A DNA stretch of 64,000 bases from Dryomyza anilis (lineage: Eukaryota; Arthropoda; Insecta; Diptera; Dryomyzidae), in assembly GCA_951804985.1 (NCBI GenBank), contig OX638132.1:4569529-4633528 (forward strand). The letters are read 5' to 3'. Below the pieces are notes generated by a model. The model was not told the origin of the DNA, made no database searches, and worked only from the letters and a program-made list of their open reading frames with translations. Shown here piece after piece: positions 10,004-38,100 of this stretch; position 1 is the first letter of the stretch, and the number at the start of each line of letters is the position of its first letter. The translations under genes were made by a program, and so were the position numbers.

Positions 10004-13000
10004 TTAATAATTCTCACTGGCATAATACTTGAGCATATTTTTTGTATGCTTAAACTGCATGCCGTCCGTGGCGGCCAGCACCTCTTCGATGAAACTTTGC
10101 GAGTTGTGTATTGTGGTGCCGCCCAGTATCACTTTGTAACCCAAGTTATTCATTTGATGCACGGCCAGCGCCTCCTCGTAGGTGGCGCCACCAATAATGA
10201 AGACAATCACTTCGTGTGGTGGTCGCCGAAATGGCACCAGTTCGGAATTGATGGCCGGATATATGGGATCCAGCTCGCGTCCCTTGAAGACATCCTCGAG
10301 CGTCTCCTTTAGCAATGGTGAGTGTTGCGTAAAGACGTTTTCGACGCCTTTCAGACCCTGCGCAAAAAATGAGTTATTTTAATTATAACGTAAATGAAAG
10401 AAATAAAAGAAATTTCTGATATATGATTTAATTCGTCATTTTAGAAGTAAAACAAACCAAATGCAAACAAAACTAATCAATATTAAAATGAATCTATTGC
10501 AAAAATATTACAATCTTTGATAAAATTACTGAGGGCCCCAAAGAAAATGTCAATATTACATTTTTTTCTAATAGCTATGATCGATAAATGAAGGTAATCT
10601 TTTTGTTCTCGGATTTAAATTGTAGAAGTTATCATTAAATAAACGTTTGCATTAACTTTTCTAAAGTAAATTTTAAAAACACCCTGTATTTTATTTGGTG
10701 ATCCAGATACATCACAACTCTAGAACCGTTTTTACATGAAATGGACCAAGGAATCAGTCCCTAAAATAAAGGGTTTTTCAAAAGGGACGCTACAAAAGTA
10801 GAGCGACAGGAAACGACGCCATATTTCTTGCCGCTCTTTTGACATTTCTCTTCAGTAAGGTTTGCCATTTCATGATGGAAAGATATACGAGCCAACAACG
10901 AGTCGAAATTATTAAAATTTACTACCGAAATTCGGTAGTAAAAATTCGAAAAATCATCTTCAGCGATGAGGCTTATTTCTGGCTGAATGGCTTCGTCAAT
11001 AAACAGAATATGCATTATTGGTCAGACAGCAATTGTTTCCTGTGGGGCTACGTCAAGTCTATGCCAACAAGCCAGCGACGATTGATGAACTTCGTACGAA
11101 TATCGAACGTGAAATTGCAGCAGTATCGGCCGATTTAGGCTTGAAAACCGTCGAAAATTGGGTTCAGCGTCTGGACTTCTGCAAGCGTGCCCGTGGTGGC
11201 CATGCAAAAGAAATCGAGTTCCATACATAATGGCATCGAACGTACTTTTACAGGAATAAAGAATTTCATTGATATCCAAAACCGCTCTTGTTTTATTTTG
11301 TAGCGGCTCTTATTGAAAAACCTTTTATATGCATACTATGCAAAAAATTATTGAACATGTAATAGATCTATTTAGACGATTTATTACATTGTGCGGCACT
11401 AAAATTTGAACCCTTTTTTTATTTACAGATTCTCTATGGTCAGTGGATCAAAAATGTAGTATAAACTTATGTAGGACATAGCAAACTACATTTTTTTTAC
11501 GTAAAGTAAAATTTTGTATTATAGCGCAAGGTTCTAATGACGAAGAGATATTTTCATTCTTGTCATTGGTTGGAATATTAAAAAAAATACAAGAGCAAAA
11601 CCATGAAAAAAATGGACTATATCTCAAAAACTAGACCCAATAAAAAAATATCGATGCCATTTTCAGAATCAGCGGCACAATTTTAACTAAAAATTGATGC
11701 ACCAAAATTATTGTAATTGTAATTTCAACGACTTTAGTCAAAATTGAAGTTAGAATTATTATTTGTTATTAGTATTTATATTTCAGAAATAGTACGTTTT
11801 TTTTACATATTAACCAACGCTCAAGAGATGCCCTTATTCGTGCAATGCACAGTGTTGATCGTAAGAAAGGATTATAGGTTAAAGGAAGGAGGAAAGATGG
11901 AGTAGTGTCGGTGGATGTTTGCTTTAAATTTTCCAATATTAAAAATGTCGGGAAAAACAGACAAACGTATCGTGCGACTGAAGAATGAGTTATCTCTGTA
12001 ATGCGTGGTTCTGTTGAGAACCGAGTGGACTACGAAGGGGTGGGCTTGGTTCGATGCCCGAGTAGAACGAGAGAATACACGACCTGGTGGAATCGGGCCA
12101 TGTATTTCCCTCGAACACTTACCATTGTAATACCTATAAAACAGGCTCAAGGTCCTTCGGTGCTCAAGGGAACCAATAGAGGATGAAATATTTTCATCCC
12201 CTATTAAATTTATTGCACGTTGTTGTATTCGATCCAGGAACTCCAAGGAAGATTTTGAAGCCCTTGCCCATATGTGCGAATTGTATTCCATCTTAGGACG
12301 AATATAGGTGGTGGAGTGAAGTATGTCTTACACCGTTTCAAAAAACCGAGGCACTTGGCCGCTTCTTTCGACACATCAAATATGTGATCATTCCAACGGA
12401 GGTCACATTGAATTGATATACCCAGAACGTCAAGAGCAGCTGACTGCGCAATATCCACAGAGTCCATATTGAGGGGAGGGAGGCGTGAATTCATTATTTT
12501 GTGAGATGGTGGTCAAAATGGTCGTCAACCTTAGGAACTTCCCTATATTTGCTCCTTAGACATCAAAAAAGTACAATGAACCATTTCGTTACAAAATGAC
12601 GAACTATATTGGTTATCCTTTGAGCCCTTTAGAACACCATAGCGCCTAACCCAGACGTGTAGGGGTATAAGTTTATACTCCACTTTTTATTGGTAGACCA
12701 CAAAGAAGCACAATATAAAAAAAAATCGGAGTTTAATTAAAAAAAATGTAATTTTGCCGCACCGTGTAATCAATAAAAAATAACTGCATACTTACACCAA
12801 AATTAATAAAATAAATAAAATACCAAACGCACCTTTATCAAGTTCCTTGTCAGCTTCACCGCATCCGTGATGCGCACCAGATTGAACAACTCGCCCTGCC
12901 GCACATGCGTACCCGCGTATTCGATGAGACTGGGCACAATGCCTGTGCGACCCTCACGCGTTTTAATGATTTGCAACAAGCTGTTTGTGTCGCAATTTGC

Positions 13001-14365
13001 ATGCCGCTCATAACGCAATGCATACAGCGCCACCAACTTGATAGCGTCCTCAACAGCTATACGCTCATCCGCAACAATCTTTTTAATGCGCTGCAGTTGT
13101 GCGGAGTGCTCAGCCTTACAAGCGACCTCCTGCTCCAGCTCGGACAACTCGAAGAGATTTCGTTTGGCACAGAGCGCAGACAGTTCACCCATGATGCACA
13201 AATGCTTTTGCACGGTGCCGCCCATTTTCTTAAACTGCGGATACGTCTCAATGAAGTTCTTCATGTCGGCAATGCTTTCGACCTTAAACAATGCAATTGT
13301 GTTAAGTAATAAATAAAAATAACAAATTCGCTAAAACCTTCTTTTGATCCTTTGCCTTGCGCTGAAATTCCTCCATTAGATTCTTTATGGTTGAGCCAAT
13401 TTCGCCATAGTTCGCGTACATATTCTTGGCATAGAACTCATCCTGGTCGCCAGACAGCACGAGCTCCTTAAAGTCTTTCGGTATGCCGGGTGTCTTCGAT
13501 AGATCAACGCGATTGTTGCGTATGCTCAGCAGCTCGTGCACCATCGCCTGATAAGTCCACTGATGCAGCAGCGGCGTCACCGGATCATCGCGTCGATCGA
13601 GCAGCAACAGCAGCGGCGGTGCAGCGCCATTCTCATGCGTGCGAAAATCGAAGAGTGACGATTCCTTGCTCGTCTGTTCGTAAAGCTGTTTGGCCAGCGC
13701 ATGCGCAACTGGACTGCCGGCGCGATAACGTATCACGGGATTGAGTTTCAGCGATAACAACACTGAGCTGATGCCCTGCACAGTGCGTGTTAGTGCGTCA
13801 GGCAACCAATTCAGTCGGTACATGCAGTGCGCAATGTTCAGTGAGAACAAATTCGGATTGACGCAAATAAAGTCCGCATAGAGCTCCTTAACCTCGCGCA
13901 CTGATTCGCTCTCGTCACACTCCGCCAGGTACTTGATGTCGGTGCGTGGTATAATGTTGCTAAAATCTATACAGGAGAGTTTAATAAGTTTGGAATCTAC
14001 TTTCAATATAAATTACTTACAAATGAAGTAGGAACCATACTTGGGAGCACGTAACTCCTCCGCCAGCAGCTGTACATTCTGTTTGCTGGGCCGCAGGAAG
14101 ACGATGCACTTGAGGTGCTTCATGCGCTCATTGGAGCGACCCGAATCGATGCGTTCGAAGAGATATACCTCACGCTGCAGCATGTCCGACTGGCTAAAGG
14201 CCATAGATATGATGCTGGTCTAAAGATAAACATATGGTGTTGGCAAAAAGTGAAAAAAATCGACCCACTCACCGTCTCTTTGTCCAGTAAAATAGTCTTC
14301 ATGCCCGGCCCCGATTCGTTGCACATTTTTTCAATGTACAATTTAATGGCCGATATTAGGTGCAT
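10004..14365 (-). CDS. Vps45: Vacuolar protein sorting-associated protein 45 (Sec1/Munc18 family)
   Basis: Sec1/Munc18 protein that binds the t-SNARE syntaxin 16/Tlg2 and promotes SNARE pairing in traffic between endosomes and the trans-Golgi. Five exons on the minus strand: 14365-14273, 14219-14021, 13966-13338, 13282-12833 and 10357-10004, with GT-AG junctions that keep frame and give exactly 574 residues; the human protein is about 570. Family landmarks seen: N-terminal [63 protein letters not shown], and C-terminal [12 protein letters not shown] and [12 protein letters not shown] at 14365 is chosen because [14 protein letters not shown] aligns with the known family start. Introns 1-3 are 53-56 nt; intron 4 is 2.5 kb, swollen by transposon insertions. 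The gene is divergent from Dtd, with ATGs 587 bp apart. Every exon reads intact. Confidence 0.97.
10530..10740. repeat. Dispersed repeat, copy 1 (Vps45 intron)
   Basis: Shares its order of words with 57555-57775 in the same orientation: CTATGATCGAT, AATAAACGTTTGCAT against AAAATATACGTTTGCATC, CACCCTGTA, and ACTCTAGAACCG against ACTCTAGAACGG. No reading frame; type unknown. Confidence 0.55.
10769..11325 (+). mobile_element. Internally deleted Tc1/mariner-type transposon
   Basis: 557-bp element with TA on each side (10767-10768, 11326-11327) and inverted ends of about 27 bp (AAGGGTTTTTC against AAAGGTTTTTC, then GCTACAAAA). Three pieces of transposase are readable on the plus strand: an N-terminus ([20 protein letters not shown]), a catalytic segment [11 protein letters not shown] holding one acidic residue, and a C-terminal part ([20 protein letters not shown]). 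The segments between are deleted and the frame is shifted, so no enzyme is made. It is inserted in Vps45 intron 4 in the opposite orientation to the gene. Confidence 0.88.
11872..12500 (-). pseudogene. LINE reverse-transcriptase C-terminal remnant
   Basis: Two overlapping frames on the minus strand (12494-12210 and 12291-11872) together read as the end of a Jockey/CR1-like ORF2: [30 protein letters not shown], then [28 protein letters not shown] and a terminal [14 protein letters not shown] motif. A frameshift near 12280 separates them. The fragment is 5'-truncated, as is usual for LINEs, and lies in Vps45 intron 4 in the same strand as the gene. Assignment to LINE is firm; the clade is tentative. 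Confidence 0.8.
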
Positions 14366-20955: not shown

Positions 20956-22989
20956 CTTAATAATACAAATTAATATAAATCATATTGTTTTCGTTTTACT
21001 CTAAACCACAGAGTATGTAGTATACATTATAGTTCTTTTCCGTGTTTGCTGGCGTCGCAACAAATTGCAACAAAATTTGCAAGAAATATCGAAATCCAAC
21101 GTTTAATAAATTTGTTTTTTTTTGCGCTTCAATGTGAAAACGTCTGAATTTGTCTTTTGAAAATGTCTCTGTTGCCAAAATATTCGATTTAATTTCCACA
21201 TAACCAATGTTTGAATTTATTTGACAAAAGTGGAGAGAAACCCCACCTGGTGTATGGAGCAAACCAGTTCTCAGGCTGTATTATTACTTTACTGTATAAA
21301 TTACTTTACACCAAACGGTCTGACGTAGATGATTGCAATCAGTTATACTTCATTTCGTGGCTATAAAGCATATATGCTTCATTTCTTGGGTATAATAGAG
21401 ATGTGGTTGTTTTCGTGGGGAAACTGAACTTGTGCTTTTTTCGTAGTTTCGAGAAAGGTGCTGTTTTTCGTAAGCAAATTGAAACGTGTGGGTTTTGGTA
21501 AGAGGCGTCGATATAAGCTATGCAAAAATATTCCAGATTTAAGTAGTTGTTGCTTCTAAAAGTATCTTTTGTCGCTGTAATTGCAAAACAAACCAAATTC
21601 AGAATGCCAATCCATGGATACGAACATTATACTTAATGTTCACAGCGTTTTTAGTAATCCAATTATTGACATTTTCAAAATGTAACACGGCGACTTAAAG
21701 AAAAAGAAAAAAACCATACCTCTAAAAGGGTAATGTAGATAATCTGTCCGCGTGGCGTGGCCCTTAGTACATGTTCCAAAATAATTAGAAAAAAATACAA
21801 TTTGTAGTTCGTAATTCTGATATGCTTCAAGGCAAGTACTATGTCAACAAATACGTCTGAAACAAGCACAAATAAAAAATAAAAAACAAATACAAAAAAT
21901 GAACATAATGTAAAAGAAAAGAACGACATATGTAAGTTGCGTGCTGAATGTGTACGTATGATGGTGAGCAAGCCTATTGCTTGTTAAAAATACTAACTAT
22001 GTTGAAACTGTGAAATTAATTTACATGTTTTTTTATTATTATTAAATTTGTAATTATTTTAAGTATGAGTTGCTCAATTTAATGATGTCATTATATTATC
22101 ATTATTTAGTACTTTTTGTTGTTGTTTGTTTTAAATTATTATTAAATAAAATACATTTAATGCTAAATCGTTAAATTAAAACCAATATTCAAATTCAATT
22201 CGCTTCACGCTTGCACACAATTTATGTATATAGTTTGGATAGCAGTAGGTAGTAGTTGTGATAGTGGTAGATAGGTAGAAGGTCGTAGAGGAGCGTAGTA
22301 GAAAAATGGTAGTAAACAAAATAGTCGTGTATAGTTTTAAATAATGATTTATAAAATATCTCGCATGTTTTTTAAAACATTTGTGTTTAAATTAGATTTT
22401 ATTCTTTTTTTATGTTTTTTTTTGTTGGTTTTTGTTTTTATCACACTTATTCTCACACTCACTAAAGTTTTTGTTGTTTTTTAGTACGCGTAATTAATAA
22501 TTTTTTTTAAATATTTTATAATTTTTTATATATTGTTTTTTTCTTCTTCTTTTTTTTATATATATATATAAGAACTAGTTAAAGTGTTTTTGTTTTTAAT
22601 TTTGTTTGCAGTTTATGTTGTTGTGGTTTTTGCTGTTTTCACTGCTGATTTGATTGTTAACATTTTTGAACAACACGCACGCATGCAGCAAAAATTGTTT
22701 TCTATTGTGTTTCATTATTATATATATATATATTTAGCTTAGCTTAACACAAACTGCTTCTCATGAATTAATGTTCTTAAAGATGTTCTTGATGTTGACG
22801 TTGTTGCTAACAGTTAATATTACTTTATGTTGTTGTTGTGGTTTTTGTTGTGGTTTAAGTGTGTGTGTTTCCTTAGGCATAAAATATTTATAATAATTAT
22901 AATAATTTATAATATTAACGCAAATAATAGTACATAATAGTATAATAATAATAATTAATTAATTAATAATAATATAATTTAAATTTAAA

Positions 22990-23196
22990 TTACAACGGAA
23001 GTGTCGGTGTATTTGTAGTTGGTGTTGGCGTCAATACCGACGCGGATGGAGGATATCGCAACGTATGTTGTGACGTTGCCTGTTGTATATAATCCTGGCT
23101 AGGATTATTCAACACGCTATCCCTTGAATTTGAATGTGACGTGGCGCGCAGCAGTGTGACTGCCTCGCGCTCTGGACTACATTGAACACCTTCTAG
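22990..23196 (-). CDS. gish: Predicted stop-codon readthrough extension of gish (68 codons)
   Basis: Directly after the gish TGA (23199-23197) comes CTAG, so the stop reads TGA-CTA-G, the strongest known readthrough context in flies and mammals. The same frame stays open for 68 codons to TAA at 22992-22990. The peptide starts LEGVQCSPEREAVTLLRATS and ends in a Thr/Pro-rich TPTPTTNTPTLPL. Base composition of the extension is that of coding exons; immediately after TAA the sequence becomes A/T-only. Readthrough would add 69 residues, including the one decoded at UGA, behind the CCCFF anchor and basic tail. Alternatives are an unrecognised splice that removes the stop, or chance openness in a conserved 3' UTR. 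Confidence 0.65.
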   Translation of the reverse strand, partial: LEGVQCSPEREAVTLLRATSHSNSRDSVLNNPSQDYIQQATSQHTLRYPPSASVLTPTPTTNTPTLPL

Positions 23197-26100
23197 TCAT
23201 TTTTGGCGCGATGATTTCTTCTTCTTTCGTTTAAAGAAGCAGCAACATCTGTGGACAATAAAACCCAAATTAAAGATGTTTTTCAACAGCAGTTTATTTT
23301 CAAATAAAACTTACTTTGTTTCGTCCACCAGATCCACTTCGGGCTGTTGCGTTATTGGAGTATTTGAATGGCCTGCTGTGGGATCGTCCGCATTCAATTC
23401 GCCGTTTGTGGAACTCACAACCTGCAATAATAAAAATGCAAATAAAAACAGTTAATAAACGTAGCTTCGTATAGCGTTGGTAACAAAGAAGAGCGACGAA
23501 AGAGCGCATCGAGAATATCACAAAATAATCACAATTATATATCACAAGATAGTGTAGATGGGTGGGTGGCAGATTTTATTTTTTTTGGTGATTTGGTGTC
23601 TGACATAGTGGTGAATTAGACGCTAGACAAAAATGTATTAAATCTCTTATTGTGGACAAAAAGAAATGGGACACAGAAAAAAAAGCAGCAAAATGTATGT
23701 GGTGGGTGATGAAAAAATCAATATTGGTAGAAAGAGACAAAGCTACCACAGAAACAGCGACAAAGAGTGAGACACAAACAAACAAAAAACATTCAAACAA
23801 CGCTAGAAATGATGTTGATGGTGCCAGTAATAAAACTAATGGAACGTATGAATAAAATTAAACTACATACAAAATATATCCTACTTGTTATGGTAAACCA
23901 AGCAATTACATTTTATTTTTTGATCATTTTGCATGTTTAACAATTGAATGAAAAATCGGAATAATAAGGAGCCAATAGAATTCTACCAAATTCAATTAAA
24001 TAGTAATTATAAAAAATAAATTTGATTTGTTTAGCTTCCACAACAAGGATACAAATTCACGATTTACACGTAGTAAAGACACTTTTTCGCATTACTAATA
24101 TTATTTTGAATGTGAAATAAAACGCCAGATTCTTTTCGAAAATGTGTAATTTTTTCGCATAGATATTTTGGTTTTAAACAAACAGAAAAACATGCGCACC
24201 TGTCACATTTATTCTTGAAAAATACCTTAAAGAAAACGCACAAATTTCAGATTGTACTTTCACTTATTACATGACGTATGATTTTTCTAATTTTGAATTT
24301 TACAAAAAAATTAATAAAATCAACAACATTTCAAAACTTATGCTTATTAGTATGATGTATGATTAGAGCAGTTAAAATAGCAGCTATTTAACTGTCGCTT
24401 TTATCGAGTCCTCTTTGTCGCTGCTTTTTTCATAATAAGCATCGAATGGACTATCGTCGTCAGAGCCGGAATCTTCTGGCAAACGCTAAAAATGTTTTGG
24501 GAAAAATATAAAAAAAAAACAATTTGTCAACTTTTTGTGCGCTTATCACACACATATGGACATGAAATGAAAACCACTGAGAGCGAAAAAAAAAGAAATA
24601 GACATGCATAAGGCTGTAATTTTCAAATCTTTGAATGAAACAAACTACATTTTGTATAATAACGACGTATGAAAATTGTGTGCGTACATCCTTTAAACTA
24701 CGATGTGATGCATAATTAAATTTCAAATTACTACAGTTGCGCACGGCATTCATCAAAATGCATAGAATTAAAAGTAGTGCTAAAAAATTTAGAGAAACAT
24801 TTACATGCAATGATTTAAAATAGCGATTGTTAACTTGAGAAATTTCCCATAAATAAAACAATCTTCAGTACTTAATTGTTTTTGATAATTTTAAGTTATT
24901 CTATTAACGTGCTCAAGGTCCAGTCAGTACAAATTGGGTGTTTTGTACCAACTAATAACAGTACTTTTAAAATATTTTTTAACTTGTTGGTAATTGTTGC
25001 TAATGGATTTTGATGAGGTTACTATAAAACAATGCGATTTTATTGTCAGTTACATATTTTTTTAAAGAGATATAAAAATTGGAAAATTGATCGTTGACCG
25101 ATCTTTTTTTAAACCCAACCAAGAAGAGGCTAATAAAAATATTCTAAATAGCAATTTTCAACCACGTAACTCATTTTATTTTATTGTTATCGTGATTACC
25201 ATGGACACATTTCTATGCTCCACGTCAACGAAAACGCACATTTTTAGGTTAAACTCGATATGCTCCACAAAACAAAAATCTCATTTTCGAAAAAAACTTA
25301 TTAATGATATATTGTATGAAATGTTTTATTGCGAAATTTAAAAAATAAAATATTAATCGTGTAGATTTTAAGAAAAATTAATGTAAACATTTCTTTAAAC
25401 CTTTTCAATGTTATATGGAGCAAGCCAATCAGAAGCCGATTTATATTCATCGAGAAATGTTAACATAAACTGTCAATCTGTTATATACAACCAAACTTAT
25501 TATTAGATACCAACTAGGAATTATTATATTTCACAACAAAATCAAGATGAATGATTAATCGTGTTTTTTTTTTATTGGTCTACAAAGATTTTTGCATTAA
25601 GTATTATTTGCATTAAGTACGCGTCGTCTTATACTTTTTAACGCATAATTGGTGTATCGAATATATCGTTGATAAAATGTCATTGCAATATTCAAGCTCA
25701 TCGTTGTCTGACTTGACTAACATCATTAAATATATTGTCGCCGCGGATTTATAATGAACAAAATTATATGACTTCAAAACTAATCGACAATTTCTTTGAG
25801 TTTTTTACGAAATAAGTAAATATCAAGGTAAAGTTATGCAGCATGAAATGTCTTATATTGTTTCTCAATAAATATGTAAAAATATTTAAATTTGGAGAAT
25901 TTTTTGGGAGTTTTTGACATGTGATTTTTCAAAATCCAATGCCGATCGGTATGAATTATTTTTTATTTTTTACCACATTGACAATGATTAAAAATAACCC
26001 AGTAGTAAATTTGTCCCGGCCTTGCCAGTAGAAGCTATATAACAACTTCTGAGTATGCTCAATACACATTCCGCCGTCACTAAAGCTAATGTACTTCCAG

Positions 26101-29100: not shown

Positions 29101-32100
29101 AAAAAAAATAAACTACTTGACGTGGAGAAATCAAATTAAAACATATAGAAGCAAAATGTTATAAAAATAAAGAACAATTAAACAATTAACGATACTAGCC
29201 ATATGCAGTATATACAGTTATGGTAACACTATACAGTATCATTTCAACATTGAAACATTTAAATACACGAAAGAATTTTTTAATTACATTTGTGATACTT
29301 TTCCATGATGATTTTAATCAGTAAAATTTATTTTAAAACATTCAGAAATAAATATATACACGATTGGGCTATATGCGCCTGACTCTGTGTCCCATACAGA
29401 ATTTTAAAAACAAAAGTCTATTATTTTACTAAATTCTTTGATTTTGGTAAATAGTGAAACACAAATTAATCGAGCATTTGTTTAAAATCTCCGAATAAAA
29501 TAAGTAACGGTCAATACTTAACGAGAAATAATTCTATCATTCTATGTTTCGCCATGAAAGAATGAATCACTAAATGTTAATATGAATTAATCAGCAATTA
29601 AATTTATAATTCTAAATCGAAATATCAATTTTGTTTCTACTTTGTCTCAGTGTTACGCTAATTGTTGGTTTAATGCTCAAACACAATGACGACTTTATGA
29701 AAATAGAAGTTATTTGTTAATTACAATGTATATAATAAATAGATACAGTTGCATACAAAGCAAACGAGCAGATTAGTTATGCAAGGATTACTTGGAAATT
29801 AGCGCAATTATTATAAGCAAACAATCAAAGGCTCTATCTAAATTGTTCTTGACCTAGCCTACAGTAGTATCAAATACACCTAACCAGCGAATGAACGAAC
29901 GTAAGTATTATAATTATTCTAACCTCAAGTATTAAATATTCTTCATCGTCATCTTCCTCGTAATCAAAATAAGAAACATCCTGAAGATGCCACAAAGAAA
30001 CAACAAATCCGCAATAAAGTAATTGAGGTTTAAGAATACAACAAAACAAAGAATAAATGAAACAAAACCCAAGATTAGGAGGAAGATATAACATTACAAT
30101 TAATAATAAAAGAAAGAAATACTAACGCACCAAGGAAGATAATATTCAAAAATTTGTATGCTATAAAATGTACAACAATAAAATACATAAAAAGTATGCT
30201 GTATTTACCTTAGCCGTTACATTATGACGATCTTTATTTGGTGAAATGATGACTTCGTGGCCAGTTTGTAGAGATCCGACCGGCGTTGACTATAGCGTAT
30301 TTTTTTTTTAGTTTTTTGCAATTTGTGTGTGTGTGTGCGTGTGTGAAGTAGTGGGTGGTTTTTGTAATTTATTTTTTAATGACAACACATAATAAATGAA
30401 GGCAAACATGTGAAAATAGAGAGAAAGATAAATATTAGTTAATCAGTTAGTTTTCGATATTTTATATGGTTATTTAAATAAATACTTTACGTTAATATAT
30501 TTGATATAAGAGATACTTGAACTAGCAATGTGTATTTAGAGATGCAAAAACAAAAACCTTAAAAAAGCAGCATAAATCAATGGTATCGATCGATGTCACA
30601 TTTTGCAGCTAGCAACCTTTGTATTTTCTATAAAGCGCATGTTTTGTTTATTCAAGAGTTTGTGCTTCAACAAAAGTGTAACATAAAATGAAATAAACAT
30701 ACAAATTTTGTAATTGTGTACCTTATCCGATTGGTTCTTTGCTAAATGCGAAGGTGGCGCATTTTTAATGACTTTCATTTGATCGAGTTGTTCCTTGTTC
30801 TAAGTTTTATGCGTTTTTGCGTAGTAGGCAATTTAATAGTTCGGTTTAAAATTTTATAAAATACAATTAATCATAAACAAAAGTTGAACAATGTAATTTG
30901 AAATACACACAAATTATACAAAATAATATTAAATAAACACAAAATAAAACTAATAATGTTTGAATATAATTTTATATTTGTTTAGAAAAAATGCAAGCAA
31001 CATTATTTGCTTTATTGCTTCATTTTTTGTTTTGTTTTTTATATAGAAATGTTGCTTATGACACAAAATTTAAGTTTAAAAAAATAGTTAAGTTTTATAC
31101 AAATAGATATTTTGTTGAATAATTCATTATATGTAGTATGTTTAGAAATTAGTTATGTTTATGCTCAAAAGGTTAATAATATTTCATATTTTGTTTGTGT
31201 TTTGCATTTTTTGTAACATTTGCAAGTTGCGGTGGGTGGGAGTTGCTGAACAAAACATATGCATGCATGCATTCATTCATCATTCATTCTTTCATTCAAT
31301 CTCAATCTCATTCCCATCTATTATTTGTTTTAAATTCACATAACGTTTCATAATGGCGCTCAAATTTTCATGCTTATTCAATCAATCAATTTCAATTTCA
31401 TATTTTAAATGCAGTTCTTTTTTTTGACATTCCTTTTTTGAAAATCTTAAAATTTGTCAAGCAGTTTTTTTGTTGCTGAGCCCTTGAATTTCAGTTGCAA
31501 TAATATAAATAATGTCATTATACGCACACAATGAGGTAGATGGTATTTCTTCTCTCTGCCAACACTTACCATAGTTTTCCCTGTCCAGTCGAATTCCCCA
31601 TCATCCACGTAGCCCTTACGATCGAATAAGTCTTGGAACAGTCTTCGCAGGAAATCATAGTCTGGCGTTTCAAAGAAATCTAACCTCCGCACATATCTGA
31701 GATACGTTGCGAATTCCTCGGGATGCCCATCGCACAATGTCTAAAAAATTATTTTATAATTTTAATTAATTAAATTTGCACTTAAAATAAATAAAACAGT
31801 CATAATATATTCAACAAATCTTTATTATTTATTTTATACTAAACAGACTCACAAAAAACATGATTTATCATGGTTCCATAAAACAGGACAGACAAGCTTT
31901 GCTCAGGTTTGTTCAGTTTCAATTATCGTATCGAGCAGATTATCTAACCCAAGCAACTAGTCAGCTTAAATACTGCTATGCTTCTCGTAGCTTGAAGAGT
32001 AGATTCCTGCCAGTAAAACTAGTAAAAAACTGATAGGATACTAGTAGCGATTTGAAGGGAAGATCCCCGCCAGTAAAACAAGAAAAAGACTGATTAGTCC

Positions 32101-35100
32101 CCAGTAAAACTTGTCAAATACTGTTCGGTTACTGGTAGGAATTTGAAGAGTAGATTCCCGTCAGTAAAGCTAGGCAAAAACTGATCAGTCCCAGTAACAC
32201 TAGTAAAATACTGGTCGGTTACTGGTAGGGATTTAAAGAGTAGATTCCTGTCAGTAAAACTAATGAAAAACTGATCAGTTCCTAGTAAACTAGTCAAATA
32301 TTGGTCGTTTACTGGTAGGGATTTGAACTGCCAGTAAAACTAGTCAAAAACTGATTGGAATTTGAAGAGTTGATTTCACCAGTAAAACTAATCATGAACT
32401 TGTCGGTTTCTGGTAGGGAAATGCCCAAAAACCGAAGTTTTACCAGATAGGTTCGATAAATCAATTTATCGCATATTTCACCGAACATTAAACGAAGAGA
32501 AATACGTTTATTTTCCGGTTTATAATCAAACATTTTTAAATTGAATTTCTCACTACAAAAATTTGTTTTTCAATACGATTGATTTGACTTAAACAGTTTG
32601 AATTCGTTTGAAAAACAATTTTTTCTATTGAGACATCGAATTCAAAACCGTTTGTTATGAAATTCGATTGAAATTTTATTGAGCAGAAATATGCCCGAAT
32701 AATTCGAATTCTGGAACAGCGAAAAACAAATTCAAATTGGAAATTTTAATACGATTAAGTTTAAAAGTAAGAAAAAGCCGAATAAGTTCTAATATCGATA
32801 CAGATTCAGTTTCAATTTAAATTCTATTGAAACTCAGTTATTCAAATTTGAAATTCTAGTCAAATAAAGAGTTTAAAAATAAAGTACAAACTTGAGTTTT
32901 TCAACAATATTGTAACGGTTTTTTCTAAAATTCTACCCTCATCACATACCTCAATGGGTGTTGCACGTTTTGTATCACCAATTTTTTGATATCTTTCCTT
33001 AAGTGTGTCGGCCTTCAGGCCTTGCCATGGCAGTGAACCTCTTAAGAAATACATAAACATATGACCGAGGGCCTCCAGATCGTCGCGACGTGATTGCTCT
33101 CTGCCCATGTGTGTGTTGATCGACATGTAGCGTGCGGTGCCGGTGAGCGATTTGTGCTCCCGATATGGTATGTGTCTATTTGTATCTAAGTCAATGTATT
33201 CTTTGGCCAAACCGAAATCTGCAAACAAACATAAAAAAATAGATTTAAATAAAATGCAATTAATATCTATTGGAGATTTCTTACCAATTATATGTATAAT
33301 TTTCTCTCGTCTCGTTGATGTTCTACCAATCAGAAAATTCTCTGGTTTAACATCTCTATAAATTAAGTGCCGACTATGAACGTATTCGATCCGGTGGAGC
33401 TGTTGTAGTGGTTACGATTGTTGGGTAAATGCAAAGCACGAAAAAAATGAATTTTTTAGTTAAAAACTATTATTGCGCTAAATGTAGAAAAGCTTTTAGA
33501 TAGATTTAAAAAATACATAGTAAATAATGCTAAAAACTAGTTCATAAACATGCATAAAAATGATTTATAGTATATAAATATTATACGAGAAGAAAGTTTT
33601 TCGAAATAGTGTCTCATCAACTAGCGATTTTATTATATTTATACTTAAATTGTAATTAATGCATAATATAAATGTTTAAAAAGAAAAGCAACTAAAAGGC
33701 AAATAATTAAAATAAAAATAAGAGCATGCATTTATTGTTTATTGGCTGTTGTAATGTAAAACTGTAACTGACTGACTATTTGACCTATTGTTTATGGTGA
33801 CTATATTTAATAACCGCTACCATTTGTTTGTTTGTTATAAAGCTATAATGACTTTGAACGAATTTAAATAATTGCTAAAATAAACAGCCAAATAACAATT
33901 TCTTATTTAAAAAAAAGCATTTTTCTATGTTAGTGGCGCATGTACATTCGAAATATTAGCTACTTCGAACACGTATTACCTAAATGTATTGAAATTAATT
34001 TGTTTAGCTGTATAAATGTGGTATAATAATAAATGCAAACTAAAATCACGTTGACAAAAATATATTTTTTTCTTTTTTTATCAATTTTGTTTTTGCTTAG
34101 AGGTAAGATTTTAGTTTTTGTTTTGTTTTTATTTGTTTTGTACTTACTAATTGTATAGCTATCAGTAGTACTGTCTTCAAAGTGAACCGTCTGCCACAAA
34201 TATCAAATAAATCTTCGAGTGATGGACCAAGCAATTCCATAACAAGTGCATTGTATTTGCCGCATGGGCCGAAGTAATATACTTCGGGAACACCTTCTGC
34301 TACAGTAGGTGGTGAACGAGACGTGACAAACGAGACGAGACGTGACGAAACAAAACGGTACACGACGAGACGAGCAGTTACCACGTCGAAGTGAGGTGAA
34401 GTTGAGTAGAGTAGTTGTGAGTGGGGGGGCAGATGTCAGATTTTGTATTTAAAACGCGACGTATACAATGTGAATTCAACGCATTTAGCAATTTCGAAAA
34501 TTCGAATATATTCGAAGATACAATACAGTTGCAACGACGTTAATGAAACAGGCCCACAAACAACGTGCGCAAGAAAAGTAAAGAAAAAGAGAAGATAAAC
34601 AAAGAATTATAATTTAAAGTAACAAAAAAAATATATATAAAAATTGTAAAACAATATATTTTGTTTCGATCGATACATTTTTCTTTTTATTTTGTGAGGA
34701 AGGACAACTTTTTTTGCTGTGGTGTAAAGAAATGTGTGAAGGATGTTAGTGATTGAATTTTAGAGTTAAAAAAAAGTTTTACCACCTAGCGTAACGGTCA
34801 TTTATTTATTGCCAGCAAGGAATAAAAAAAATTGCAAGTCATTTTGTAGCGCAATTTAATAGAAATTCTCGTAGCATATACAAGAAGTCTGCTTTTGGGT
34901 TTAAAAATAAATACACTATATATCGTTGTTTTGGTATTAGGCTAGCTTAGCTCATAATTATAACAGCTTAAATTACATATACAAATACAATAAAACTAGT
35001 CATAAGGCATATACATTAATAAAAGTAATAGACAAACATTCAACTGGATATTGTACAAATAAAGAAAACCTACATAGCTCACTCAGTGTTGAAAGAGCTC

Positions 35101-38100
35101 AAAGAGGTTGCGATTTCAAATGTTGGGTCGGTCAGTGACTTTAATTGCTACAGTTAACAATTGCAAATCAAATTAAAAACTACAGCGCGTTTTTTTTATA
35201 CATTTAACAGAGTTGGTTTTTTAGACTGTCTGCTATTAAAGTGAACTAATCATTCAAAATGTTTTATGTAAAACTACTAAAAATATAAATAACACTACAT
35301 TATAGTTTTTAAATAAAACTACTACTTAAAATTATAATACATGTATTTACTAGCTGTTGAGACACTTTAGTTGATGTATAATTTAAAGAAAATAAAATAA
35401 AAATAATTCTTTTGATAGAAAAATGTAAATAAAACAATTTTCATTTTAGCAATGACATTAACAATGCTTTAGCGTTAATATTAAACAACAAAAAAACTAT
35501 TTCCAAATAACATTTTTAGGTATGTGTTAATTTTTCAAAGAACTTACACATTAGACTTATTAAACAAATTAAGAATTACTTTAAATATGAGCAAAAAATA
35601 ATAATTAGAACAGCAACAACAAATAATAATGATAATAAAAATAAGATAATATGTTTCGAAAGTAAACGCATAAAGTAGTAAAAGTAGTTGTAGTAAAAGA
35701 AGAAAAAAGCTTTGTGATTGTGAACTTACAAGTTGCTTAGCTATCATCAGTACAGTCTTAAGTGTAAATTTACGGGAGCAAGTATTGAAGAGATCTTCTA
35801 ACGACAGTCCCAATAACTCTAATACCATGGCATTGTAACGGCCACCACATGTGCCCAGATGATAGACCCGCGGTATACCCTCTGGACAGTTATCTTTTTG
35901 ATTTGATTGATTCATAGATTCATTGATTCGGCGAGCGTACGGTTCGATGGATGGGTGGGAAGAGGAACGAAAAAGATACAATACAATACAACGATAACAG
36001 ATAAGCGCTAAGTTTAAACAAAACAAAAAACTTAAAATATAAAATTATCATCATTTTGCAACAGAGAGTCTGACAGAGCGAGAGATAAATAGCGTTTGAG
36101 AGAGACAGAGAGAGAGAGAACAATATGTGTATGTTTTATGTAACGTTCTCCGCAAGTACTTAAATTATTCTGTACAACTTTTATTTTTTATTAAATTTAA
36201 AAGCACCGGACCTCTGGCATATGCTGAGAGATATATTCTATTACATGATGTTGAGGTTTGTCTTTTAATAACTTTTTATTATTATTTCTTTTTTTATTTC
36301 TTTTATATAAATTTATAAATATATTTTGTAGCAATTGACAAAAACACAAACATTGCCTTTTATGTACGAAGGTGGTAACGGTGCAAAAATTGAGTTAATA
36401 GAGAATAGAGCAGGAAGAGGATGGATGATAAGGAATGGATGAGAAATAGTGGAAATTCTGGTGCAAGTAGTTAAAAGCATTGGAAGGTTTATAGTGAGAG
36501 GAAAAGGCGGAACAGTTTAGCATTTGTGGACAAATCCAGCAAGCATGACAAATGACTAAAATATTTATAGAAAAGCTTTTAGCTAATTAATAATTTATAT
36601 TTTTGTAATTGGACAATAAACGTAAAACAATTTATTTTAAATAGCTGAAGGCATATTTTATGACTTTGGAGTTGGAGGAGTGGATTGTAAATGGTTTCTT
36701 TACTAGGTTTTCGTTTAAATGCGTTAATAATGATGAACATAAATTACAACATACCATGTGATCCTAATAGTTTATAAAACCTATACTCTAAATGTAGTTG
36801 CGGAGCCTTTGACTTCATAGGCTCCATTTTTATTGCTACGTGTTCATTGTTGTAAAGATTTTTTCCTGAAATAAAACATAGAAAGAAATATTATTAAAAA
36901 CCAATCATGTGATAAATATGTATAGGCAAATAGTATTAGTCAATATAAAATAAATAAAATCAAAATACATCGGCACAAATGTTGATCAGCGATCTTTAAT
37001 ATGTGTTGGGTTATAATATCAATTTGAACCATGCAATATGGCGTTTCTTTGAATGCAGCAAATGAAATGATATTTTATGTTTCTTGCAAACATAATACAT
37101 TCTATGCCACAAATAAAACAGCACAATTTTCGCTGATTCAAGTACCTGTGGCATCTGTAGCTTCCGAACTAACTGCACTACTTGAAAAAAAGCACATTCG
37201 ACGACCTGTTGGTTGAATTAAGGGTATTTTTATGATTTTATACTACAAGTCATATAAACTAACAGCAAAATGCATGCAATATACGAGAATATTGTGGAGT
37301 GAACAGATTGATGTAGACAAGATTTTTGTGAAAATTTCAATTCAATAAAATAAGAGCTAAATATGACTGTTTTATAAAACTATAATGTATGGCTAAATCA
37401 AATACTTTTGTAAATTTGATTCTAATTTGGTCTAAGGGCCAGTTTTTTTTAGTGATAGTTTAAACTTCGTTTAATTAAACATTTCTTTAAATTAAACGGC
37501 GTTTAACTTGATTAGCAGTTTTTCAGTAAGTGTTTAGAGTGAACACAGATCAAAACAATACACAATACAAATCTAGTTCATTTTTAATTAAAGTGTACAA
37601 AAAAATACATATAAAGGATGAATTGTGAACCAAAGCAGCAACAAAAAATGGTGTAAAGTGTTGTGAGAAAATTTCCAATCAAACACATGGAGCATTTTAA
37701 CGAAGTTTAAACCATCAACATCGGTCGTTTAACCTGAATTTAAACTATGGTTAATGTTTACTGAAAATGCGATTTTGACTTTAAAATTGGTTTAAACCAC
37801 AAACTAAGTTCAGCTATCACTGAAAAACTGACCATAAGACCCACTTTTTCAAATTAAACGTAGTTTATATATTTAAACTAGATGTAATTTCATCCATTGT
37901 TAACATATTAAAATATATCATATTAACTGATTACTAATTGTTTTTCTGTCTGTAAAATTTAACTTCATTTTGGCCGATTTAATTAGTAAAAACAGAGGTT
38001 TTGAAAATGTGGAAAAGGTTAAACCAAGTTTAAACTTGTACTGAAAAACTAGACTTAAGTTGTCCATATTTTACGTTTCCAGATTTCCATATTTTACGTC

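Follow-up and report, generated by a model that had tools for sequence, protein, structure and literature searches.

The insect kinase Gilgamesh: a conserved alternative C-terminus and a candidate tandem 3' splice-site switch around a TGA-CTAG stop

Introduction

In Hedgehog and Wnt signalling, CK1 gamma kinases work at the membrane, which requires a palmitoyl anchor, and in the fly homologue Gilgamesh (Gish) the palmitoylation signal is SRCCCFFKR, which is required for membrane association, according to PMC4900676. Kinases without a working anchor have been made as Gish-CS, Gish-deltaC and C-terminal mutants of CK1G3, and these were located off the membrane (PMC4900676 and PMC9254030). The gish gene is known for its many transcripts. 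Counts of 12 isoforms (PMC3737179) and of 13 splicing variants, A-M (PMC5515886), have been given, a shorter gish splice form occurs in male bodies (PMC8055025), and mutually exclusive exons are mentioned in PMC11765297. In the CK1 family, tails are exchanged by alternative splicing in CK1 delta of vertebrates and in dbt of many insects, as described in PMC9794997.

A different way of extending a protein is stop-codon readthrough. For four human genes, it is stated in PMC5100048 that readthrough is triggered by UGA-CUAG. In the same paper, candidates are generally reassigned to splicing if the second open reading frame holds an exon break, or if a 3' splice site with a maximum entropy score of at least 4 occurs together with preceding codons that fail to score as coding.

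Here, the end of gish was analysed in a 64,000-nucleotide stretch of Dryomyza anilis DNA, referred to as the window. Judged by protein comparison, the frame following the gish stop encodes an alternative C-terminus that is conserved in this CK1-gamma kinase of insects. The likeliest and simplest reading of the sequence is that a pair of tandem 3' splice sites would switch between an anchored and an anchor-free kinase.

Results

The last exon of gish and the frame behind its stop

The gish gene was located on the minus strand, to which all coordinates of its parts refer. The penultimate coding exon (23315..23421) ended in VDLVDET and two further bases, AA, and was followed by the donor GTAAGT (23314-23309). 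An intron of 66 bases (23249..23314) led to a proximal CAG acceptor (AG at 23250-23249). The last exon began at 23248 with the anchor segment, which was closed by a TGA stop (23197..23248, TGA at 23197-23199). The stop was part of TGACTAG (23193..23199), a leaky context, and its TGAC, with the A at 23197, was also branch-point-like (TNAY) and is a putative branch point. Between the TGA and a distal acceptor, the AG of TGTAG at 23178-23177, lay LEGVQC and the AG (23177..23196), a stretch that would be translated via readthrough only and that distal splicing would take out. The tail coding segment PEREAV...TLPL of 61 residues (22993..23176), preceded by a split codon for N or S, and the stop TAA (22990..22992) completed the frame.

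The first-pass annotation had recognised gilgamesh, its terminal anchor and the TGA-CTAG context, and was right in this. The frame that it had described on the minus strand was confirmed by the coordinates, with 68 sense codons (22993-23196) between the TGA and the TAA. It had also called this extension exon-like, with A/T-only sequence right after the TAA, and the GC content was 0.49 in the extension, 0.185 in the next 200 bases and 0.318 in the window. Stops interrupted the extension in both of its other frames, and there was no in-frame ATG and no methionine anywhere in it. TGACTAG was present seven times in the window, once on the plus strand and six times on the minus strand. An open run of at least 68 codons followed 149 of the 8085 six-frame stops of the window (1.8%), and 37 of the 2329 TGA stops among them. 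When the extension was shuffled by mononucleotides, 3.6% of the shuffles remained open. The length of the extension by itself is uncommon, not extraordinary, and is weak evidence. Across all 69 contigs of the assembly (656.6 Mb), the tail matched at the gish locus only; a retrocopy revealing splicing was sought in this way, and the gene itself was the sole match.

Several other features were recorded in the window. One kinase-domain exon of gish was present in two alternative versions, at 34148-34296 and at about 35730-35893 (minus strand). On the same strand, an open reading frame at 30596-30799 resembled an optional gish exon, like RNAPPSH in two of the retrieved proteins (P0009 and P0012), and another at 29870-30121 was of the optional-gish-exon type, with an acidic stretch like that of P0012-P0014. 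Minus-strand open reading frames at 12803-14219 look to us like exons of the Sec1/Munc18 type, presumably of Vps45, and pieces of a reverse-transcriptase-like frame at 11872-12512 (minus strand) were taken to be probably a remnant of a non-LTR retrotransposon.

Conservation of the tail

Three protein searches were performed. The extension alone returned 11 candidates, 7 of which were kept (best E-value 1.2e-19), and 6 of 11 were kept with a longer query in which only the extension counted towards the score (best E-value 5.4e-29). A search with a Timema tail left 11 of 13 candidates at E<=0.1. Pooled, these searches gave 18 different proteins (P0001-P0018), the weakest E-value among them being that of P0018 (0.015, Timema-tail search). 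All 18 matched the pattern PERE[AQ]V[TK]LLR[AT](T)TS[HQ]SNSRDS. The named sources were Drosophila palustris, three Anopheles, Culicoides, four Timema species and the mayfly Ephemera danica, and the named matches among the 18 retrieved proteins were insects throughout. The 61-residue tail differed from that of the window at one position each in D. palustris, P0015 and P0016. Relatives of the 68-residue extension were found neither among 62 pattern matches in viral contigs nor among 564 pattern matches in prokaryote genome contigs.

The coding status of the extension, which the first-pass annotation had asserted, was thus upheld by protein-level conservation and not by open length. On this comparison, the tail is genuine coding sequence and is old within winged insects.

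A distal splice route to the tail

Nine of the 18 proteins (P0007-P0014 and P0017) had the preceding exon fused directly to the tail, reading VDETN|PERE, without the anchor. These nine were gene models from databases and were treated as candidate products. The junction DETN|PERE was carried by Drosophila palustris (P0008), Anopheles culicifacies (P0009), An. albimanus (P0010), Culicoides sonorensis (P0017), four Timema species (P0007, P0011, P0012 and P0014) and Ephemera danica (P0013), that is, by six lineages when the two Anopheles are counted separately and the four Timema proteins together. Joining the donor after 23315 to 23176 in the window yielded precisely this DETN|PERE, AA|T giving N and the tail frame being entered. 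The resulting 138-base intron would contain both the anchor and the TGA. The first-pass annotation had named an intron that takes out the TGA as a refutation of its readthrough proposal, and the junction of such an intron was present in half of the proteins, with an in-phase site in the window.

The distance from the proximal to the distal acceptor was 72 nt, a multiple of three. TNAY elements were present 20 nt (the TGAC of the stop codon) and 35 nt before the distal acceptor. Pyrimidines made up 7 of 16 positions at the distal acceptor, which was the poorest of the nine gish acceptors. When 2632 minus-strand AGs were ranked with a crude leave-one-out matrix that was trained on eight sites, the distal acceptor was placed at the 19th percentile and the proximal acceptor at the 96.7th percentile. 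Two other gish acceptors were also low on this crude percentile scale (42 and 58).

The distal AG was the sole in-phase AG from the TGA to the conserved core; hence, gene predictors obliged to include the tail would all converge on it. Further, P0013 held both mutually exclusive kinase exons and is not a faithful transcript. Because of the sole in-phase AG, the weak acceptor and the double exon of P0013, less weight was placed on the DETN|PERE models. A fragment from An. sinensis (P0002), consisting nearly entirely of the tail, was named after 'isoform L' of gilgamesh, and this name suggests the existence of an annotated fly isoform that carries the tail. Overall, it was considered fairly probable that the distal site is used, either alone or beside readthrough.

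RNA folding of the extension

When compared with permutations that kept the protein and the codon usage, the fold of the extension was the more stable one (z -3.27, 1 of 300 permutations as good), and seven other gish exon pieces, put through the same test as controls, gave z from -1.3 to +0.94. In an earlier run, all 68 codons gave z -4.23 by usage (0 of 500) and -3.47 by permutation (1 of 500), and the first 39 codons gave -2.5 (4 of 500) and -1.83 (17 of 500), respectively. Codons 7-21, which were picked after the fold had been seen, gave -3.34 (2 of 500) and -2.46 (9 of 500). The significance varied with the stretch chosen, as dinucleotide shuffles gave z of -3.24 (120 nt), -1.41 (121 nt), -1.74 (60 nt), -4.37 (118 nt) and -3.48 (150 nt). 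Less striking were the two stretches that surround the stop (60 nt and 121 nt) and, under permutation, the first 39 codons, and 10 of 200 shuffles folded as well as the 60-nt stretch. The fold of this single sequence was dominated by two predicted hairpins in the tail segment, at 23144..23170 and 23082..23113 (minus strand). Resting on one sequence, the predictions suggest a constraint at the RNA level, which may serve splicing or readthrough.

Readthrough and other routes past the stop

The main rival to the splice-site switch is readthrough as the only or the main route, in which UGA-CUAG is decoded, perhaps with the help of the hairpins, and the kinase carries an internal anchor and the tail. 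The DETN|PERE models would then have been forced by predictors that are unable to represent readthrough. The stop context is the motif cited in PMC5100048, and the second frame is kept as protein, with the core in all 18 sequences and no ATG from which it could start. The RNA of the extension, which folds better than its synonymous permutations, and the weakness of the distal acceptor are also in favour of readthrough.

Further support comes from the nine proteins in which the sequence leading up to PERE was unspliced. When the window is counted as well, QCS or QLS stood ahead of PERE in all ten unspliced sequences (9 QCS, 1 QLS), although five of them (P0001, P0003-P0006) start one residue earlier, at a residue that is biased to start codons. 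The residues before the distal acceptor were conserved as if coding, and the codon CAR is not one that a pyrimidine tract would favour. In P0015, P0016 and P0018 the anchor was followed by W, L, a G-initial codon and VQCS, spaced as in the window. The W represents TGA or TGG, presumably TGA, in a code that reads TGA as Trp. Given this spacing, TGA-CTAG could be present in all three.

However, the other nine proteins join past the TGA, and the in-phase acceptor makes an explanation by splicing available. P0018 had A-V in place of E-G of the window, both changes altering the residue, and P0002 of An. sinensis read VEMRSVQCS with no break at the position of the stop. By term look-up, gish was also absent from the main texts of four readthrough papers (PMC5100048, PMC3840789, PMC4999894 and PMC4528330). 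Elsewhere, gilgamesh and readthrough co-occurred in PMC8063413, both inside the reference list, and 'gish' in PMC6886504 and PMC4207609 was the author name Gish. For PMC13170385 (2026, on Drosophila readthrough), the term counts of gish and gilgamesh were zero.

Based on these observations, readthrough is a possible extra or main route that is unproven, and as the only or main route it was regarded as doubtful, with an appreciable chance of being correct. The proposal of the first-pass annotation was therefore retained in part: the leaky context and the coding extension stood, whereas ribosomal passage of the TGA was not established and half of the proteins bypassed it. Similarly, the anchor would become internal, as had been proposed, only under readthrough, and in the spliced form the tail would replace it.

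Additional features were noticed in the same three proteins. Residues 1-20 of P0018 formed a second anchor-like stretch (CYRCWCFIKRKKK) upstream of the anchor, with W-L after each of the two, and this is perhaps a duplicated anchor exon. In P0015 and P0016, the intron between DETK and CCCFF was open in frame with TGA read as Trp and ended in SRCCCFFKR, the anchor of fly Gish as given in PMC4900676. This could be a sign of a further acceptor or of intron retention. The counterpart of this intron in the window started with an in-frame TAA.

The remaining explanations fared much worse. With A-to-I editing, the UGA would become UGG (Trp) in some mRNAs and the frame would be open. Neural mRNAs of flies are commonly edited, the extension has strong structure and a small predicted stem includes the GA of the stop, but the local 60-nt fold was unexceptional (z -1.74), and editing was considered very improbable. 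It is still harder to credit a chance open frame, an antisense gene or a separate downstream cistron. An equally long run does follow 1.8% of the stops in the window, but a chance frame was rejected on the strong protein conservation in the frame of the extension, an antisense gene on the listed plus-strand frames of at least 60 residues, which only touch the edge of the extension (23186-23455), and a separate cistron on the missing in-frame ATG. Selenocysteine insertion at the UGA, for which conserved coding sequence after the UGA would speak, has a negligible chance, as a comparison of both strands of 21000-23500 with Rfam returned nothing at E<=1 and hence no SECIS element downstream by this search.

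Discussion

We proposed that the last exon of gish possesses two in-frame 3' splice sites. Use of the proximal site would give a kinase that ends in the palmitoylated basic anchor and stops at the TGA. Use of the distal site, with TGAC as its candidate branch point, would splice out both the anchor and the TGA, and the kinase would then end in the Ser/Thr/Pro-rich tail. Since the tail has neither the anchor cysteines nor the basic cluster, this form would be expected to be cytosolic. Readthrough at TGA-CTAG may add to the splice route.

A combination of both mechanisms was entertained only tentatively, as having a small chance, and this estimate overlaps with the one given for the use of the distal site. 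TGACTAG would then have a double role, as the readthrough stop at which the anchored form ends and as the branch point for the acceptor 20 nt further on. Three kinases would arise from one last exon, one anchored, one anchor-free with the tail, and one with an internal anchor and the tail. The structured tail RNA would tune both choices, in flies and in at least one further insect lineage.

A swap of the anchor should matter, because membrane association of Gish needs the palmitoylation signal. If the proposal is true, a conserved natural kinase form whose anchor is lost by splicing or made internal by readthrough would represent a built-in localisation switch that is testable in Drosophila. 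For catalogues of readthrough, the locus illustrates a confounder, as a strong readthrough context and a conserved extension can coincide with a splice site seven codons downstream.

The tandem splice-site switch may finally be compared with the described systems. With the insect readthrough genes, as presented in PMC5100048, PMC3840789 and PMC4528330, gish shares TGA-C, a conserved in-frame second open reading frame, a disordered-looking low-complexity tail and downstream RNA structure. It differs from them in that the TGA is followed at 21 nt by an in-phase 3' splice site, which is used in gene models. Compared with CK1 delta and dbt, gish is a CK1 gamma gene, in which a tandem 3' site would put a Ser/Thr-rich tail in the place of a palmitoyl anchor. 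In contrast to the Gish-CS, Gish-deltaC and CK1G3 constructs, the tail form of gish would occur naturally as an anchor-free kinase and would have a conserved tail of its own.
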